From Nitrospina sp. (GTDB taxonomy: Bacteria > Nitrospinota > Nitrospinia > Nitrospinales > JACRGP01), in assembly GCA_024648695.1 (NCBI GenBank), contig JACAVV010000011.1, forward strand, positions 1-64,000: a DNA stretch of 64,000 bases, read 5' to 3'. Every line of letters starts with the position of its first letter. The stretch's first letter is position 1. Below, in pieces: positions 14,204 to 26,651 of the stretch. The position numbers were made by a program, and so were the translations under genes. The notes under the pieces were generated by a model. It was not told the DNA's origin and ran no database searches. It saw only the letters and a program-made list of their open reading frames with translations.

Positions 14204-14581
14204 AAGAGGTCTCGCAGGTTCAAAATGGAATTGAATATAACTCCCCGTTCAATGTTTCTTTTCGGAAAATGAGGCAAAACACTTTACATTTTTTGTTCAG
14301 ACCACATTTACTCCAATTTATGAGCAAAATTCTTGCCATTTGCCCGAAGGTTGGATGTTAAGTTAAAACATGCCTTTCTAGCTGTTTCAGGAGATTTTTC
14401 TTTAAAAAACAGGCCTATTTCTATAAAAACTGATTTGAAACCGAATCCAATGAATTTCATCCAAACCAAAGTCTGTATTTTGTGTTTGCTTTTTCATTTC
14501 CATGAAAGGCATAATTTTCTCTTTTTCAGATATCCAGGAAAATATTGCCTGCATTCCATAATCTTTGAGGATTTTACAGCT
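14204..14581. other. Divergent intergenic region
   Basis: This stretch of 378 bp lies between the glycan operon (leftward) and the Mo-enzyme gene (rightward). The Mo-enzyme frame stays open back to 14333, but the N-terminal extension looks non-coding: low complexity and no family similarity. I see no RNA gene or strong terminator. Confidence 0.5.
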
Positions 14582-15280
14582 ATGAAGGACGTCAAAATAG
14601 ACACCAACTCAAAACGCATAAAGGGCCGGGAGATTCTGATGCAATATCGCAAAGCTCTCCAGGAGAAAAAGAAATGGGAGGGGGACATGCCTATGGGGGA
14701 AGGACCTTTGAATCGAGACGGCAACCCCAAAGTACCTCCCGGTCAGAAGCAGGTGGAAAAATGGCCGGTTCTGGATCTTGGTTTTCAACCAGAAATTTCT
14801 ACAGACCTTTGGAGTTTGACCATTTCTGGTTTGGTTAACAAGCCCGCCCAGTTCAGTTGGGAACAATTTATGGACTTACCACAAGTAGAGGATATTTCGG
14901 ACTTTCATTGTGTCACGACCTGGAGCCGAATGGATAATCACTGGGTGGGAGTGAGATTCAAGGACATTGCCGAAATGTGCGAAGTCAAACAGGAAGCAAA
15001 ATTCGTCTATATCAAAGCTTTCGATACCTATACGACAAACCTGCCTTTATGTGAAGCCATGAAGCCTGACGTTCTATTAGTGCATTCCTGGGAAGGGGAA
15101 CCGTTAACAAAAGAGCATGGTGGCCCGGTAAGAATGATCACTCCCCAACTTTACGCCTGGAAAGGGGCGAAATGGATCGGTGAAATAGAGTTCAGGGAAA
15201 AAGATGAATTGGGGTTTTGGGAACAAAGGGGCTACTCGAATACCGCAGAACCCTGGTTGAATGACCGCTATTCTGATTAA
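14582..15280 (+). CDS. Sulfite-oxidase-fold molybdopterin oxidoreductase
   Basis: A protein of 232 residues with the oxidoreductase molybdopterin domain of the sulfite oxidase/MsrP (YedY) superfamily. Motifs are LTISGLVNKPAQFSWEQFMDLP, then FHCVTTWSRMDNHWVGVRF, in which Cys110 is the expected Mo ligand, then HGGPVRMITPQLYAWKGAKW. There is no Tat or Sec signal, no haem domain and no dimerisation domain. That matches the short cytoplasmic sulfite-oxidase-like group, whose substrates are mostly unknown. The ATG at 14582 has a TTGAGG about 12 bases upstream; the longer in-frame ATG or TTG starts back to 14333 are not supported. It is convergent with the next gene at 22 bp. Confidence 0.85.
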   Translation: MKDVKIDTNSKRIKGREILMQYRKALQEKKKWEGDMPMGEGPLNRDGNPKVPPGQKQVEKWPVLDLGFQPEISTDLWSLTISGLVNKPAQFSWEQFMDLPQVEDISDFHCVTTWSRMDNHWVGVRFKDIAEMCEVKQEAKFVYIKAFDTYTTNLPLCEAMKPDVLLVHSWEGEPLTKEHGGPVRMITPQLYAWKGAKWIGEIEFREKDELGFWEQRGYSNTAEPWLNDRYSD

Positions 15281-18791: not shown

Positions 18792-19292
18792 CTAATTATC
18801 ATAAATTCCAAATTTTTTCAGGTAGGAGATAAAAGAGACGATATTGACCAACTCAATTCTATCGTCCTCTATCGCGCGAATGGCATCATTGGAGAAGTAA
18901 CCGGTAGTTATTATTATACCTCTTGCGGCATCTTCACCTTTTACCGTTTCAAAAAAACCGGTAACCGTATGAAGATTTACTGTATTATTTAAAGGTTCAA
19001 AAATGGCGAGAGCGAGATAGATTCCCCCAACTACAGGAGTTTCATCTTCAAGGGCGATTTCTAATTCATTATCATCGGCCCAAATAGAATGTTTATACTC
19101 AAGATTGAATTTTTCCAGAAACTCGATACATTTTGCTTTAAACACTTCCCGGTCTAATAAAAACTTCGGTTTATCTTCAGGGTTTTCAAAATGTATTTGC
19201 TCCTGAGGACGTGGGGGTGATGCGTTTTTTAATAAAAGAATAAGAATGATTCCAATAACTATCCCGGAAAACGCAATTATAAAAATACCCAC
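18792..19292 (-). CDS. Membrane-anchored Mrr-like domain protein
   Basis: A protein of 166 residues with one N-terminal membrane segment (residues 3-21) and a soluble domain. The stretch ARGIIITTGYFSNDAIRAIEDDRIELVN resembles the Mrr/restriction-endonuclease-like fold (G-ITTG-FS--A--A). The catalytic Asp/(Glu-Gln)xLys core is not evident: the strand that should carry xxK reads GGIYLALAIF. If Mrr-related, it is probably inactive. The start is GTG, overlapping the TAG stop of the upstream small gene by one base (TAGTG). It lies at the end of the cytochrome operon, so a role in that complex is possible but unproven. Confidence 0.55.
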   Translation of the reverse strand: MGIFIIAFSGIVIGIILILLLKNASPPRPQEQIHFENPEDKPKFLLDREVFKAKCIEFLEKFNLEYKHSIWADDNELEIALEDETPVVGGIYLALAIFEPLNNTVNLHTVTGFFETVKGEDAARGIIITTGYFSNDAIRAIEDDRIELVNIVSFISYLKKFGIYDN

Positions 19293-19474
19293 TACTTTAT
19301 CATTTCATCCCAAACTTTTTCTTTTTTACCTGCTTTAATATGCCGGTCATGTTTTATCATTTGAACAATGGCCACCCAAAACAGAAAAAACACAATCACC
19401 AACATAGCCGCGATAGGCATGTTATCCGGTTTGAATGCAATCAACAAAAAGTTTTCTAAACCTGAATTTTCCAT
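19292..19474 (-). CDS. Small single-span membrane protein
   Basis: A 60-residue protein with one hydrophobic segment (about 19-39, MPIAAMLVIVFFLFWVAIVQ) and a basic C-terminal tail. It lies 80 bp downstream of the octaheme cytochrome gene and is coupled to the Mrr-like gene. The size and topology fit a small accessory subunit of the respiratory complex. No motif identifies it. Confidence 0.55.
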   Translation of the reverse strand: MENSGLENFLLIAFKPDNMPIAAMLVIVFFLFWVAIVQMIKHDRHIKAGKKEKVWDEMIK

Positions 19475-19554: not shown

Positions 19555-22251
19555 TTAGAAATCTTCATCTTCCTCCTCTTCCTCTTCCTCATCTTCGTCA
19601 GATTCACCAAGGCTCAGAGAAGTATCGTAATCAGGCGAATTATAAGCCATGATATAGTCTCTAATCAAACCAACCTGTTTATCAACTTTTCCCTCTTGAA
19701 ATGTATTTAATAAATCGTACTTATTGAGAGGGCTAAACGAGCCGTCTAGGCTTTGCGGCCAGTGACTCGGCATTTTGGTCCAAGGAATCAGATTTTGAGT
19801 GAACTTTAACCACTTTGGAACCCAATTGGACCTGAGCCGATTACTTGCAATAGAAAATTCAATTCCTTTTGCACCATCATCATGACAATTGCCACATTCC
19901 ATATAGTTTACCATACGAACGCCATTTTCAACATTCTCTTTGGCTTTAGCTACATTCAATCCAGCTTCAAAGGGAACTTCTTCTGGCGATAAGGCAACAA
20001 AATAAGAGGTAAGGGCCTGAACTTCTTCATCGGTAAAATTGAAGGTCGGCATTTTAACCTTCAACCAGGTTCGTACCGGTGTCGGATTTTTCAGGAAGGA
20101 ATATAGCCATGAGGGTTTGATTCTCTCTCCCACATGATAGGAGTCCAATTCCAATGGCGGCGGATACTGAAAAGTGGCGCTAATATATTTCTGTATTACC
20201 CCACCCTCTCCTTCAATATGATGACACCCTTTACAATTATATTTTGAAACGATCCTACGGCCACGCTCAATGATTTTTTCATTTTTGGAATAATTCCGCT
20301 TGTATTCATGCGGAATTTTAATTCCATTTAAACCTTTCAATAAAACCATCAAAGCTTGAATTTCATCGTCAGCCAAATGAAAATTCGGCATTTTATCCAG
20401 AATTCGTTCCGTCCTGTAAGTCGTGGGTTTCTTCAGTTTATTATAAACCCAGGATTCCCAGGTGCGTGCAACATGCGAATCACCAAACTCAAGCGTCAAT
20501 ACTTGCTTGTTACCAAAGGAAGATAATTCAGGAGCGATACGACCTTCTTTTTCCATACCTTTGATATCATGACATGCGAAACACCCACGCCTTCTAACAA
20601 GAGACTCACCGTATTCAATGAGTTTCTTGCTGGCAACCATCTTGTCAATATTCTTGATTTTTGTTGGCTTGCCAAACTGGATCAGATACGCGGCAATATC
20701 AGCGGCTTGTTGTTTCTTAAGTCGCAAATTAGGCATTTTACTGCTGGAGTTGTAGTGACTTGGATTCAATACCCAATTATACAACCAGGTCTTTCCAACT
20801 TTTTTGCCTATATTACTAAGGTCAGGGGCATGTTCCTCACCTTTACCTTTTAACTTGTGACAGGCCAAACACCCTACCGTTTCAAATTCTTCTTTTCCTT
20901 TTTCAGGATCACCTGATTTGAATGATTCTGCGTAATCATATTCCTTATCAGAGGCATCTATGAGATAGGCAGTGATGGCCATTGCATCTTTCTCATTCAA
21001 GCCAAAGTCAGGCATTCTGGTATTTGGAAGGTATTCCCTTGGCTTTCGGATCCAGCGGTACATCCAACTCGAATTTACCTTGGAACCGATTCGCCTTAAA
21101 CTGGGGCCAACTTTTTCTTCATTTTGATAACCCTCAACAAGATGACAACCATGACAACCTAATTTAAGGAACAAACGCTTTCCTTTACTCAACAAAGGTG
21201 CGCCTTGCAAATCTACGACTTCAGCATGACAATTATTGCAATTGGATTGCATAAACTTGCCTAGCAAAATCGGCTCATTAATCCCCACTGTCTGGTCCAT
21301 TTCATGATGAGACCCATGAGCGTGCTCTGGTGGAGCCGTCGCGGGACCTTGGCCTTTATGACACCATGTACAACCGGTAGATTCGGGTGGATGCTTTCCA
21401 ATTAATAGTTCTCTGTCTGGATGAGTCTTTAGGGGTTCTGAATACTCCTTGTAATAATCGTCATTATAAGAAATATGACAGGTCATACAGCGGTCAACTT
21501 TATAAATAATTTCCGAGAAATTATTTTTACCATAACCGGTGATTACCGTTTGCTTGATTTCAGCAGGACGCCAGAACAAAGGAAATGGTTTGTAAAAATC
21601 CATCCGTCGGTTTAAATTATCGCGTTCATTTGTGAGCGATCTCAGCTCTTTTTCAAGTTTACCGATTTTTGCCTTGCGGGCTAAAACTTGTGATTCCAGC
21701 TTGTCATATTTTTCCTGAAGGCCTTCAATTACTTTATCAAATTCTTTAATTTCTTCTTCAGTCTCATGAACCCTGGCTAATTCAACATCAAAATTTCTAT
21801 TTTCATGCTGAGCCTTTTTATAATAATAATAGTATTCGTCTAACCGGCTCAGGGCAAACTTTCTATGCTCTACCTCTTCATCCAGATGAATTTTGGCTTC
21901 GCGGGTCTTTTCCAGTAGCTCTTGAAATTCACTGGAACTTTCTAAGCGTTCATTTTCCTGGGAAAGTATGCTCGCCAATTCATTTTCCTTATCCTTAATT
22001 TGCTTGTTTTTTTCTTTCCAGCTGTTTTCAGCCCGGGTGTATTCAGCCTTAAAATATTTGGTTTGATAATCTTTATACCCTCGGCGAGAGTACTCATCAT
22101 CCCAAAATGCCCATAGCGTGACCAAAAGGAGGCCTCCGGACATAAGGAAAAAGAAAAAGCTAAAGGATACATCTTCATCTTTAAAGTAATCGCTCTCTGG
22201 CGCCTTACTCTCGGTTTTTTCTACTTCTTCATTTGAATCTTTGGTAGCCAA
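19555..22251 (-). CDS. Membrane-anchored octaheme cytochrome c with coiled coil
   Basis: A protein of 898 residues. One membrane span (~31-50) is followed by a charged coiled coil (~55-215) and then eight CxxCH haem sites starting at Cys 255, 294, 338, 366, 461, 557, 673 and 786. The first three lie in a His-rich region without obvious Met ligands. The last five each head a class I cytochrome c-like unit ending in a Met-Pro ligand motif (RMPDF, KMPNL, KMPNF, KMPTF, KMPSH). The tail is a run of Glu/Asp. It is the fourth gene of the Rieske-b6-subunit IV operon and so likely replaces cytochrome f/c1, passing electrons to the periplasm. The start is TTG; GGGA lies 8 bases upstream. Confidence 0.88.
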   Translation of the reverse strand: MATKDSNEEVEKTESKAPESDYFKDEDVSFSFFFFLMSGGLLLVTLWAFWDDEYSRRGYKDYQTKYFKAEYTRAENSWKEKNKQIKDKENELASILSQENERLESSSEFQELLEKTREAKIHLDEEVEHRKFALSRLDEYYYYYKKAQHENRNFDVELARVHETEEEIKEFDKVIEGLQEKYDKLESQVLARKAKIGKLEKELRSLTNERDNLNRRMDFYKPFPLFWRPAEIKQTVITGYGKNNFSEIIYKVDRCMTCHISYNDDYYKEYSEPLKTHPDRELLIGKHPPESTGCTWCHKGQGPATAPPEHAHGSHHEMDQTVGINEPILLGKFMQSNCNNCHAEVVDLQGAPLLSKGKRLFLKLGCHGCHLVEGYQNEEKVGPSLRRIGSKVNSSWMYRWIRKPREYLPNTRMPDFGLNEKDAMAITAYLIDASDKEYDYAESFKSGDPEKGKEEFETVGCLACHKLKGKGEEHAPDLSNIGKKVGKTWLYNWVLNPSHYNSSSKMPNLRLKKQQAADIAAYLIQFGKPTKIKNIDKMVASKKLIEYGESLVRRRGCFACHDIKGMEKEGRIAPELSSFGNKQVLTLEFGDSHVARTWESWVYNKLKKPTTYRTERILDKMPNFHLADDEIQALMVLLKGLNGIKIPHEYKRNYSKNEKIIERGRRIVSKYNCKGCHHIEGEGGVIQKYISATFQYPPPLELDSYHVGERIKPSWLYSFLKNPTPVRTWLKVKMPTFNFTDEEVQALTSYFVALSPEEVPFEAGLNVAKAKENVENGVRMVNYMECGNCHDDGAKGIEFSIASNRLRSNWVPKWLKFTQNLIPWTKMPSHWPQSLDGSFSPLNKYDLLNTFQEGKVDKQVGLIRDYIMAYNSPDYDTSLSLGESDEDEEEEEEEDEDF

Positions 22252-22266
22252 TGATCGAATCCCAAA

Positions 22267-23016
22267 TTAAATGTTAAACCAAGGGGTTACCCAAACATAC
22301 TTGATGTTGAAACCTAACCGAAGAACAATCTTGATCACGATCCCTACCATAATCAAAAGCAGATTGATCTTAATAAACATGCGCATAAAGCCTACACTTT
22401 TCAACGCCTTTCTTTCGGTGAAAAAATAGACACCAGTCCCTATGACAAAATAGCCTATCACCACAGCTCCTCCAAACAGACTGGACATCCAGTAATCTCT
22501 GAACCCAAAAGCATAAGGCAAATCCACATTGGTAAGCGCCACCACTTTATGAGGATCCCAATACTGCCAAGGCATGAACAGGTTCCAACCGGGGCCTCTC
22601 AAAAACACACCCATAATAATCAACGCGATCCACAAAACCAAAAAGCCAAACGCGTAGACCCAGATCGCCACTTTTCTTTCTGTATAGGTATAATAGCCAT
22701 TCCCCTTAGGATTCACGTCCAGATAAGGAATGAGCATTAACCCTACAATAATAAGAACCGGAGCGACCACCCCTGCAAACCAGGGGTCAAAGTAAACCAA
22801 AATATCCTGCAACCCCAAAAAGTACCATGGTGCTTTAGAAGGATTCGGAGTTTTGGAAGGATTGGCCGCTTCTTCCAAAGGGGCATCAATGGTGATAGAC
22901 CAAACCGTCAAGAATATCATCACCACAATGGAACATAAAAATTCCAGCCTTACCAAATAGGGCCAGACGTGAAGCTTATCAGGAAGATCATTCTCATTTT
23001 TTTTGGGTGCCGCCAT
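22267..23016 (-). CDS. petD: Cytochrome b6f-type subunit IV-like protein (C-terminal cytochrome b half)
   Basis: A protein of 249 residues. HVWPYLVRLEFLCS leads into the first of several membrane spans. The Qo-site motif region reads KAPWYFLGLQDILVYFDPW, corresponding to the PEWY region of cytochrome b with Ala in place of Glu. The protein is longer than plant PetD (160 residues), with extra C-terminal spans (~165-245). The ATG at 23016 is used because GGAATGG lies just upstream; a TTG at 23028 is less likely. It sits 117 bp after the cytochrome b6 gene and 15 bp before the octaheme gene. Confidence 0.85.
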   Translation of the reverse strand: MAAPKKNENDLPDKLHVWPYLVRLEFLCSIVVMIFLTVWSITIDAPLEEAANPSKTPNPSKAPWYFLGLQDILVYFDPWFAGVVAPVLIIVGLMLIPYLDVNPKGNGYYTYTERKVAIWVYAFGFLVLWIALIIMGVFLRGPGWNLFMPWQYWDPHKVVALTNVDLPYAFGFRDYWMSSLFGGAVVIGYFVIGTGVYFFTERKALKSVGFMRMFIKINLLLIMVGIVIKIVLRLGFNIKYVWVTPWFNI

Positions 23017-23133: not shown

Positions 23134-23961
23134 TTATAGAGGCCCTGAAATACCACCGTCCTTACGAATTCTCCAGAAATGCACGATCATCAAAGCTCCG
23201 GCTATAAGCGGTATCAATATACAATGCAACACATAAAACCTTAATAGTGCCGGCGGGCCTACCAAACTACCCCCAAGAAGGACAGACCTCGCGTCATATC
23301 TGGAAGTCACCCCGACAAACTCCGCAAAAGGCCCTTCGTGTCCGAGAAATGGAGTTGCGCGGGCCATATTGGTTCCTACAGTTACCGCCCACATAGCTAA
23401 TTGATCCCATGGTAAAAGGTACCCGGTAAAGCTGAGCAACAGCGTAAATGTAACCAGAAACACTCCAATCACCCAGTTAAACTCCCTTGGCGGCTTGTAG
23501 GAACCCGTCAAAAATACTCTGAACATATGGAGCCAAACCGTAATAACCATGGAATGAGCGGCCCAACGATGCATATTCCTCATCAACATACCAAAAGGAA
23601 CATCATATTGCAGGTATTTCATATCATAATAGGCGTATTCACCTACCGGCCGGTAATAAAACATCAGGATAACTCCGGTCACAACAGTAACCAGAAACAT
23701 CAAAAAGGTAATACCCCCCATACACCAGGTAAACTTGATTCTTAGCGCATGCCGGTGAATTTTAACCGGGTGCAAATGCAACCAAACATTACTGGCAATT
23801 TGCAAAACACGGTTACGCGGGGTATCGGCATATCCATGCCGAAAGGAAGATGTCCAAATCTGAGACTCAGTAATTTGCTTCGCGATATCAGAAAAAATCT
23901 TCCCACTTTTAATATCGTTCATTATTTCCGCAAAGTTGGGAATATTTGGTTTCGTAGCCAA
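23134..23961 (-). CDS. petB: Cytochrome b6-like diheme subunit
   Basis: A protein of 275 residues matching cytochrome b6. Haem-ligand histidines are H131/H145 ([15 protein letters not shown]) and H246/H261 (FYVLHC, MIVHFW), with the b6 spacing of 14 and 15. WCMGGITF (C80) aligns with b6 YCLGGITL, whose cysteine covalently holds haem cn/ci. The end, [10 protein letters not shown], matches b6. An N-terminal extension of ~45 residues is present. It transfers electrons from quinol at the inner membrane. The start is TTG, with TTTGGAGG 9 bases upstream. Confidence 0.92.
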
Positions 23962-24029: not shown

Positions 24030-24611
24030 CTAAACCCTTAAGATAGAGCCGGGCTTACCCCACTCACCCTTTTCAAAAAGGAATTTCTTGCTTTTATCAA
24101 TCTGGATTTGCCCATCCGGAGCCAGGGTAATCTTTAATCGCTCCAACGGACGTGGCGCGGGACCCTCAAAATTAATCCCATCCATGGTAAAACCGCTACC
24201 ATGACACGGACATTTGAATTTCCCTTCCCCCTTCAACCATAAGGGAGTACATCCCAAATGAGTACAACGGGCCAGAATGGCGTAAATACCCTCAGGTTCC
24301 CGAACGATCCAAACACGTTCCTGCTGTTTCCATTTCGTACTCACTTCACCCACGGTATAATCGCCAGGACTTCCCGCTTTAAATATTGGAGAAGGCTCGA
24401 ACAAAACGCGAGGATACAATAGTCTTAAAAAATAAAGGGATGATAAACCGGTGGTTGCGGCAAAACCAGCCCAACCTGCCAAGGAAAAGAAATCCCGACG
24501 CGACCATATCGTATTTTTCGGTTCACTTTGGTCTCCACCCTTTTTCCCAGCTTTCGCTTTTGCGGGTTTATCTGCGGTTTTTGCCTTTTTTACTTGTTTT
24601 ACTTCAGCCAT
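24030..24611 (-). CDS. petC: Rieske iron-sulfur protein of the b6f-like complex
   Basis: A protein of 193 residues. A Lys/Ala-rich N-terminus is followed by SRRDFF (37-42), a Tat-type or anchor signal, and a span to ~62. The 2Fe-2S ligands are CTHLGC (C116, H118, and disulfide C121) and CPCHGSGF (C134, disulfide C136, H137). It accepts electrons from quinol at the Qo site and passes them to the c-type subunit. The ATG at 24611 is preceded by TTGGAG at 6 bases; the in-frame TTG at 24623 is part of that Shine-Dalgarno. First gene of the operon. Confidence 0.93.
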   Translation of the reverse strand: MAEVKQVKKAKTADKPAKAKAGKKGGDQSEPKNTIWSRRDFFSLAGWAGFAATTGLSSLYFLRLLYPRVLFEPSPIFKAGSPGDYTVGEVSTKWKQQERVWIVREPEGIYAILARCTHLGCTPLWLKGEGKFKCPCHGSGFTMDGINFEGPAPRPLERLKITLAPDGQIQIDKSKKFLFEKGEWGKPGSILRV

Positions 24612-24702
24612 TTGTAACTCCAAAGCTCCAAAAAATAGGAGCTTATCACCAACTTTTAAGGTTTAGATGGTAGCTTGCCTCGTTTTTAAAGAGTTGACTT
24701 TT

Positions 24703-24757: not shown

Positions 24758-26113
24758 TCAGGATCCCTTCCTAAGCTTTTGATGGCATGCCCGAATGGCA
24801 TATCCCAAGCCCTGCATACTGGGCGACCAGGTGTAGGTGACAGGAAGCAAATCACTAATTTTCATCTGTTTATTCATTGCCATGGAAATATGTGAAATCA
24901 ACTCGGGAGCCCCTTCACAAATCAATTGAGCGCCTATCACTTTTTTCGAAGTTTTATCTGCCACTATTTTTATTAATTCATTGATGCGGTTAGAATCCTC
25001 TCCACCCTGCTCAAAATACGATTCCCAAGTACCCTCTACCGCTCTAAATCCAAAATGATGGGCCTGGCCCGCAAAACATCCCACACTTGCAATCTCAGGT
25101 AAACTCTCGAAAACATAGGGTATTTCATTGTTATTTATCGTATTTAATTTTCCAAGGGCGTTCTCCGCCGCTACGTTTCCTTCCAACCGGGATCGACAAA
25201 AATCCGGTGTCCGACCCATAACACTGCCTGCGGCAAAAATTCCTTGAGTGGAGGTTTGCATATGATCATCCACCATAATTTCATTATTTTCTCCCAATCT
25301 AAGGTCTAAATCCAAAACTTGCAAGTCCTGGATATCCGGTTGATGGTTTTCCGCAAACAAGATCCGATGCACGGGAAACTTGACGCCTCCTTCCAGGCTG
25401 ATATTAATTTGCTCATCATCCTTAAAGATGGAAACAATACGTTTTCCAAAAAGCAGTTTAACCTTTTGAATTTTCATGCTTTTTTCAATTGCAGAAACCA
25501 GATCGGGGTCCAAACCTTCGCCAATATGCGGGAGTCCATCATTCAAAAACACCCTGCAACCCAATTCATTAAAAAACCGGGCCATTAGACAAGCCAATGA
25601 GTTGGCTCCGACAATTAAAAGGCTGGGTGGCAGATCCTCCATTTTTAGAGCATCTTCCACAGCAAATATGAACTTGTTATCAAAGGGAATTTCCTGTGGA
25701 AACCGGGTCAGTGAACCGGGGGCCAGAATAATCGCTTTTGCCCGGATGGACTCCTGCCCTGTCTCCGTTTGAATGCCCACTTCGGTTTTATTGATGACAA
25801 ACCCTGTTCCCTTTAAAAAATTCACGCCATTTGTTTTGATCTGTTTTTCCAACTGGTTGGAATGCAACGAGGAGACACCTTTAGCTCGGCCAGTTATTTC
25901 TTTATAAACCCCAGCGTCTTTCACCGTTTCCTTTAATAAAGCCGGATCCTCTTTTAAAATAGAGCGAATCATTAAGTCACGATGCCATACATGACCGCCA
26001 CCCAATCGGTTCTTCTCTATAAGACACACTTTGGCCTTCATTTCGGAAGCTCTTAATGCGGCGGCTATACCAGCACTTCCTCCTCCAATAACAGCTAAAT
26101 CAAATTCATTCAT
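24758..26113 (-). CDS. Dihydrolipoamide dehydrogenase-like flavoprotein lacking redox cysteines
   Basis: A protein of 451 residues with the full class I pyridine nucleotide-disulfide oxidoreductase layout. FAD motif GGGSAG (10-15), NAD-domain motif IVGANSLACLMARFF, second FAD motif GIFAAGSV and a C-terminal interface domain are all present. The redox site normally GGTCLNVGC reads GGGHVWHRD (38-46), so both cysteines are gone. The interface His-Glu dyad motif (HPTxxE) is replaced by TWSPSMQG. It cannot use the usual disulfide chemistry. It could be a non-disulfide NAD(P)H:quinone or other flavin reductase, or a structural flavoprotein. It is leftward and 146 bp upstream of the Rieske operon. 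Confidence 0.75.
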   Translation of the reverse strand: MNEFDLAVIGGGSAGIAAALRASEMKAKVCLIEKNRLGGGHVWHRDLMIRSILKEDPALLKETVKDAGVYKEITGRAKGVSSLHSNQLEKQIKTNGVNFLKGTGFVINKTEVGIQTETGQESIRAKAIILAPGSLTRFPQEIPFDNKFIFAVEDALKMEDLPPSLLIVGANSLACLMARFFNELGCRVFLNDGLPHIGEGLDPDLVSAIEKSMKIQKVKLLFGKRIVSIFKDDEQINISLEGGVKFPVHRILFAENHQPDIQDLQVLDLDLRLGENNEIMVDDHMQTSTQGIFAAGSVMGRTPDFCRSRLEGNVAAENALGKLNTINNNEIPYVFESLPEIASVGCFAGQAHHFGFRAVEGTWESYFEQGGEDSNRINELIKIVADKTSKKVIGAQLICEGAPELISHISMAMNKQMKISDLLPVTYTWSPSMQGLGYAIRACHQKLRKGS

Positions 26114-26184: not shown

Positions 26185-26541
26185 TTAAAATATTCCAAAA
26201 ATGGCGACACCACCAAACAAAATCAACAAAATTGAGGACAGGATGGCATGCAGGGTCACATTGATTTTTCGGCTCCAGGGAATAATTATCAGCAGATATC
26301 CTAAAATAAAGTACATCCACCAGGAGTTGGTGAGCAAATAGTGATTTGCCGTTAAAAATAGAAGGTACCCAGTGACGACGAAATAATAAGCAATCCGGTG
26401 AAATCGATACCCCTTCTTCCTTTTATCCTTGGGCAATATGCTGACTCCAATTATCACATTGCCAAGTGTCAATAGAAAGGTAAAAAAAATTAATTGAAAT
26501 GAAGGATGGGCAACTAGTTCTTCAAGGGTGGTGAGGGGCAT
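26185..26541 (-). CDS. Small multi-pass membrane protein
   Basis: A protein of 118 residues with about four hydrophobic segments (FQLIFFTFLLTLGNVIIGVS; IAYYFVVTGYLLFLT; WWMYFILGYLLIIIPW; AILSSILLILFGGVAIF) and a short basic loop KDKRKKGYRFHRI. I do not recognise the family. The His residues in and near membrane segments could suggest cytochrome b561-like or DUF420-like proteins, but this is weak. The ATG at 26541 is preferred over a TTG at 26556. Confidence 0.55.
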   Translation of the reverse strand: MPLTTLEELVAHPSFQLIFFTFLLTLGNVIIGVSILPKDKRKKGYRFHRIAYYFVVTGYLLFLTANHYLLTNSWWMYFILGYLLIIIPWSRKINVTLHAILSSILLILFGGVAIFGIF

Positions 26542-26651
26542 AGAGACTGATGACAAATTTTCAAATGGGGCCGGGTTTCATGCACTAAATGTCAAAACCC
26601 GTCAATAAAATACTATTGGGCAATGTTTAATCTCTTTTTGAAAAAATGACA

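Follow-up and report, generated by a model that had tools for sequence, protein, structure and literature searches.

An octahaem c-type cytochrome as the probable substitute for cytochrome c1/f in a b6f-like Rieske/cytochrome b complex of Nitrospinota

Introduction

Nitrospinota are abundant marine nitrite oxidisers. Nitrite oxidisers need reverse electron flow, the passage of electrons from nitrite to quinone being uphill. The locus described here raises the question of which protein acts as the high-potential c-type subunit when genes for a Rieske protein and a cytochrome b stand together and neither cytochrome c1 nor cytochrome f accompanies them, and of what function the long coil in the candidate protein could have. 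The 2013 description of Nitrospina gracilis names an "atypical octaheme" as the only c-type subunit beside a bc-like operon, which was also noted in Kuenenia and Methylomirabilis (Luecker et al. 2013, PMC3578206). An AlphaFold3 complex of Kuenenia Kustd1480-1485 was published in 2025 (PMC12954380). An octahaem in the place of c1/f is therefore not a new finding (PMC3578206, PMC12954380). The complex has so far been only outlined in Nitrospina and modelled only in Kuenenia, and haem ligands, a haem-free arm, a likely extra subunit and the lack of an NAD(P) module amount to specific, testable statements about it.

Results

The window (the whole stretch of 64,000 nucleotides of Nitrospinota DNA that was analysed) contains the following genes on one strand.

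19555 to 22251, minus strand: octahaem c-type cytochrome, putative c1/f-replacing subunit; ORF of 898 aa (Cytochrom_C PF00034, 4e-33)
22084 to 22164, minus strand: its N-terminal membrane helix, residues 30-56 (AlphaFold2 helix)
22267 to 23013, minus strand: subunit IV (PetD-like), 248 aa, five predicted TM helices (PF00032, 7.5e-9; hydropathy)
23134 to 23961, minus strand: cytochrome b6, 275 aa, with Cys80 at the haem c_n position and an invariant H62 (PF00033, 4.1e-43; alignment)
24030 to 24623, minus strand: Rieske protein, 197 aa, closest solved structure Kustd1480 (9rk3) (PF00355)
24758 to 26113, minus strand: disulphide-reductase-like flavoprotein, 451 aa, upstream of the Rieske gene, membership of the complex uncertain (Pyr_redox_2, 8.6e-38)

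The octahaem ORF starts with TTG, as do those of many relatives at a similar distance upstream of haem 1. It carries eight CxxCH motifs (residues 255, 294, 338, 366, 461, 557, 673 and 786) and hydropathy gives a single TM segment at residues 28-46, so that the eight-haem, membrane-anchored protein proposed by a sequence-only reading of this DNA was recovered. The protein is no product of chance, as it was matched in 29 of the 31 high-quality Nitrospinota genomes; a search of a plasmid collection gave no matches.

Immediately upstream, in the same orientation, are the genes for Rieske, b6 and subunit IV, with which that reading had said the protein is encoded. Cytochrome b is split, b6 and subunit IV being separate genes. 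Cys80 of b6 stands within FTWCMGG, in TM helix 1, and is replaced by Gly in three family members that are more distant; H62 does not vary among 15 diverse b6 sequences. The order Rieske, b6, subunit IV beside the octahaem is conserved throughout Nitrospinota. Outside Nitrospinales it was found in 15 of 19 coiled-coil loci, counting the distant Nitrospinota genome G001 and leaving out a locus with only subunit IV upstream; of the other four, two are split, one is an orphan and one is truncated by a contig end.

The absence of c1 and f genes had also been claimed. The whole genome, which is 97% complete, was searched for both. The best match to cytochrome c1 (PF02167) reached 15.4 bits (cut-off 22.8) and the best to cytochrome f (PF16639) 17.3 bits (cut-off 30), none thus exceeding the family cut-offs, and the octahaem itself has no cytochrome f match in Pfam. 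Another contig of the same genome carries a second cytochrome b gene, and the surrounding 12 kb that were read contain no gene for a c-type cytochrome.

Beyond these genes, a conserved membrane protein of 123 aa with no family match is encoded upstream of the flavoprotein in Nitrospinota (26185-26556, minus strand). Farther away, 14552-15280 (plus strand) encodes a sulfite oxidase/MsrP-like molybdopterin oxidoreductase (PF00174, 1.8e-40).

Comparison with solved structures placed the Rieske protein closest to Kustd1480 (9rk3; 166 bits, E 9.8e-48), followed by Kuste4569 (9rk4) with 87 bits, and plastid and cyanobacterial b6f proteins stayed below 55 bits. A Ser/Phe pair is common to the window protein and Kustd1480, whose measured potential is +335 mV (PMC12954380). 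Subunit IV of Kustd1480-1485 has five TM helices, as predicted in the window (PMC12954380), and both complexes have a large multihaem subunit with long helices, the likeness to Kustd1485 being drawn from its description. Gene order, the lack of any c1/f match over cut-off and a second cytochrome b with no c-type neighbour all point to the octahaem as the high-potential c-type subunit, in place of c1/f, of a b6f-like complex; the Rieske match, the Ser/Phe pair and the five-helix subunit IV point to one of the Kustd1480-1485 kind. We put the probability of this reading at roughly 0.8.

With plastid and cyanobacterial b6f the window complex would share the split b, the haem c_n cysteine and a Rieske protein with a TM anchor; it differs in lacking cytochrome f, in having eight haems instead of one and in having five TM helices in subunit IV instead of three. 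Alternative complex III (6btm) also has membrane-anchored class I-like haem domains, but the octahaem matches it only locally, over one cytochrome domain (29 bits). To our knowledge, that complex contains neither a Rieske protein nor cytochrome b. The N. gracilis octahaem belongs to the same phylum and the same kind of operon, with a Rieske protein, a split b and an octahaem as the sole c-type subunit. However, neither a coiled coil nor haem ligands, nor an acidic tail or small subunit, are mentioned in the available portion of the 2013 description (PMC3578206), and the window represents a genus-level lineage other than N. gracilis, with nearest relatives about 64% identical.

The N-terminal part of the octahaem shows two features of its own.

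21598 to 22077, minus strand: helical hairpin of the coiled coil, without haem motif, residues 59-218 with the turn at 150-154 (AlphaFold2, heptad test)
21805 to 21864, minus strand: conserved hairpin patch RKFALSRLDEYYYYYKKAQH, residues 130-149, before the turn (conservation across families)

The stretch 50-222 is 45% charged (170 residues tested) and poor in Gly (3) and Pro (1); heptad periodicity scores 0.53 as against 0.22 in shuffles (p = 0.0005). AlphaFold2, given the N-terminal 260 residues, places helices at 59-105, 107-149 and 155-218 with pLDDT mostly above 90; from first to last they span 160 residues, the length of coil that had been proposed. Five residues (150-154) interrupt the helix between its two long arms, which implies a hairpin, and from these predicted helix limits the coil is predicted to fold back on itself. 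A fold search with the full model returned coiled coils only, none with E below 0.1, the best being antiparallel coiled coils; weak matches are expected of this low-confidence model, as the haem domain is poorly modelled (mean pLDDT 55.9). Across families the best-conserved parts of the helical region are residues 130-149 and 55-64, and F132, S135, D138, Y142, Y144 and A147 are each shared by 80% or more of the 42 coiled-coil members.

According to the sequence-only reading, the protein may form an extended electron wire from the quinol oxidoreductase, which can be taken to mean that the coil carries the haems outward, off the membrane. The coil is certainly long and one chain with eight haems could in principle bridge a long distance, but residues 1-254 contain no CxxCH motif, all eight haems coming after them, and the chain is predicted to reverse at 150-154. 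Furthermore, coil-less relatives with the same eight-haem core also occur in Rieske/b6/subunit IV operons, and the helices of Kustd1485 have been modelled as wrapping around the Rieske protein and the complex (PMC12954380). An outward wire is thus improbable, and a coil that forms part of the wire is not supported. Being a predicted hairpin free of haem, the coil cannot itself be a wire; the arm is probably a brace or clamp, and if there is any wire, it would be the eight-haem domain itself, the modelled shape of which is of low confidence. The predicted haem-free hairpin with its conserved patch is new here.

Another possibility concerns the flavoprotein encoded upstream, which might serve as the NAD(P) module in a quinol-driven reduction of NAD(P) such as has been proposed for Kuenenia. 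Its gene is adjacent in nearly all Nitrospinota loci, mostly upstream of the Rieske gene, and b6 has His62, Arg266 and Lys267 at the residue numbers given for Kustd1481, where His, Arg and Lys are predicted to hold an extra haem at the dimer interface (PMC12954380), the equivalence being taken from the numbering. The flavoprotein resembles dihydrolipoamide dehydrogenase, but it lacks the redox CxxxxC pair and any Fe-S motifs, and it is weakly conserved, at about 30-41% identity as against about 90% for b6. The Kuenenia operon encodes an NAD(P) oxidoreductase, whereas the window operon has none with Fe-S clusters, and a search of the genome for the GltD type with extra Fe-S clusters did not find one, giving only two matches of 31-33% that cover residues 23-449 of 611. 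NAD(P) reduction by this complex is therefore unlikely. That a Kuenenia-type NAD(P)-reductase arm was not found, going by gene content, is new here, although the three b6 residues are present.

It was also considered whether the coil and an NAD(P) reductase gene exclude each other, as such a gene accompanies 0 of 20 coiled-coil operons and 4 of 10 coil-less ones (Fisher p = 0.008, on related rows). This idea was rejected, since in G001 a GltD-like gene lies 1.5 kb from the coiled-coil operon and in Kuenenia the two features occur together.

The haem region of the octahaem can be divided in two.

21226 to 21489, minus strand: haems 1-3 (C255, C294, C338) with candidate sixth ligands H277, H287 and H312 (bis-His) (alignment conservation)
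19759 to 21204, minus strand: haems 4-8, class I-like units with putative Met ligands M413, M506, M621, M734 and M827 (alignment, Pfam)

Conservation was read from an alignment of 52 octahaem sequences. H277 and H312 are present in all 52 and H287 in 51; within region 240-360 no other histidine, apart from those of CxxCH, is invariant or close to it. The five methionines stand in KMP/RMP context; the first four are invariant (52/52) and M827 occurs in 47 of 52. Pfam finds Cytochrom_C and Cytochrome_CBB3 in four stretches each, and together with the methionines these domains agree with the five class I-like units described before. It had further been said that the three N-terminal haems lack clear Met ligands. 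As a refinement, these haems are not ligand-less, exactly three candidate His partners being at hand. The simplest reading of the alignment is three bis-His haems and five His/Met haems, and this assignment of three His and five Met candidates to eight haems is new here. A conserved candidate sixth ligand on all eight leaves no open haem, which argues for electron transfer and not for catalysis; a chain for electrons would be expected of this protein, and an enzyme would not. An enzyme of the HAO or octahaem nitrite reductase type fed by the Rieske/b pair, suggested by the haem number and by the Nitrospira octahaem nitrite reductase that adjoins such a pair, is very improbable, given the family matches to class I cytochrome c and none to HAO/ONR, and the candidate ligand on every haem.

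Downstream of the octahaem lies a small gene that is unannotated.

19292 to 19474, minus strand: single-TM protein of 60 aa with a KPDN.PI motif, probable further subunit (conservation, fusions)

It begins eighty bases past the octahaem stop and its product is about 68-87% identical across Nitrospinota loci, where it adjoins the octahaem. In a profile search, four loci outside the order (L068, L079, L080 and L085) proved to have it as a free-standing gene, which in L085 is flanked by b6 and subunit IV. In ten further loci, from other families, it forms an N-terminal fusion with subunit IV; several of these separate and fused finds were absent from the profile seed. The fusion to subunit IV is good evidence that the protein belongs to the complex. 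It is thus probably a subunit, and new here.

In Nitrospinota the stop of this ORF overlaps by one base the start of a gene for a membrane-anchored protein with an Mrr restriction-endonuclease-like domain (18792-19292, minus strand; PF04471, 1.4e-7), which is conserved beside it. Homologues of the Mrr-like gene adjoin the Rieske/b6/subunit IV genes in L079 and L080 and the 60-aa ORF in L068.

The octahaem ends in a further feature.

19558 to 19626, minus strand: acidic C-terminal tail, residues 876-898 (Asp/Glu content of the C-terminus)

Asp and Glu make up 64% of the last 25 residues, in line with the acidic tail already remarked upon. All 22 Nitrospinota sequences compared have 52-88%, and G001 has 60%; in all other coiled-coil members the proportion is a fraction of 0.08-0.28, the tail being absent, and the Kuenenia complex is not known to have one. 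From these sequences the acidic tail is specific to Nitrospinota, which is new here. Acidic regions of other bc1 complexes dock basic cytochrome c, and by analogy the tail could be a docking site for such a carrier.

Octahaem matches at E <= 1e-20 were obtained in 57 of 77 Nitrospinota genomes, four of them weak partial matches only. Outside the phylum 32 of 310 sampled bacterial genomes gave matches, the sample being one genome per species and mostly draft or metagenome assemblies. Every complete relative has eight haems except an 829-aa cytochrome of G001, which has nine. The coiled-coil form (about 860-1060 aa) occurs in 15 sampled families outside the phylum and the coil-less form (650-770 aa) in 6. 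In the tree the window octahaem falls within Nitrospinota, and the coil state has changed at least three times. A survey of gene order in Nitrospinota and other phyla had been proposed together with the octahaem reading; in the sampled genomes it shows coiled-coil octahaems in these 15 families, mostly in the same gene order, and this range is new here.

Discussion

The present study suggests that an octahaem stands in for c1/f in this complex, and conserved gene order together with the lack of c1/f matches bears out that part of the original proposal. It could be possible to outline how such a complex works. The octahaem is anchored in the membrane by one helix, with its eight haems all beyond the coil. 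The Rieske head group would swing from the quinol site to a haem near the membrane, and electrons would then hop from haem to haem within the eight-haem domain until they reach a soluble carrier of the periplasm, docked at the acidic tail. The haem-free hairpin would brace the complex, probably by embracing the Rieske protein in the way modelled for Kustd1485. In a nitrite oxidiser the complex could run in reverse, electrons from a nitrite-derived cytochrome c reducing quinone at the expense of proton-motive force.

As to the organism, its genome contains an NXR alpha fragment that scores 1052 bits to Kuenenia NxrA in a PDB search. Contig 50 of the same genome (L107, 1-3445) starts inside the NXR alpha gene and continues with a beta-like gene. 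NCBIfam TIGR03479, used as an NXR marker, gave no match over cut-off in any genome. The alpha fragment and the beta-like gene indicate that the organism is very probably a nitrite oxidiser, and the octahaem complex is the natural and main candidate for the reverse electron flow step.

On a wider view, Rieske/b complexes with this octahaem of three bis-His and five His/Met haems might form a third broad class beside those with c1 and f, spread over many bacterial families. Their core would include a single-TM subunit so far overlooked, the 60-aa KPDNIPI protein in its free form or fused to subunit IV, and a haem-free hairpin would clamp the mobile Rieske head. This is put forward tentatively, its chances being somewhat below even.

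Two genomes with octahaem relatives deserve mention. G193, from outside the phylum, has a coiled-coil octahaem (L077) with no Rieske/b genes nearby, and a hydrazine-synthase-alpha domain (1.9e-22) is present in a 534-aa protein of its L103, the one match to this anammox marker among the relative-bearing genomes. This protein is by itself no proof of anammox. G001 carries two tandem Rieske/b6/subunit IV operons (L068, 3793-16069), the first with a GltD-like Fe-S flavoprotein and the nine-haem cytochrome, which lacks a coil, and the second with a coiled-coil octahaem.
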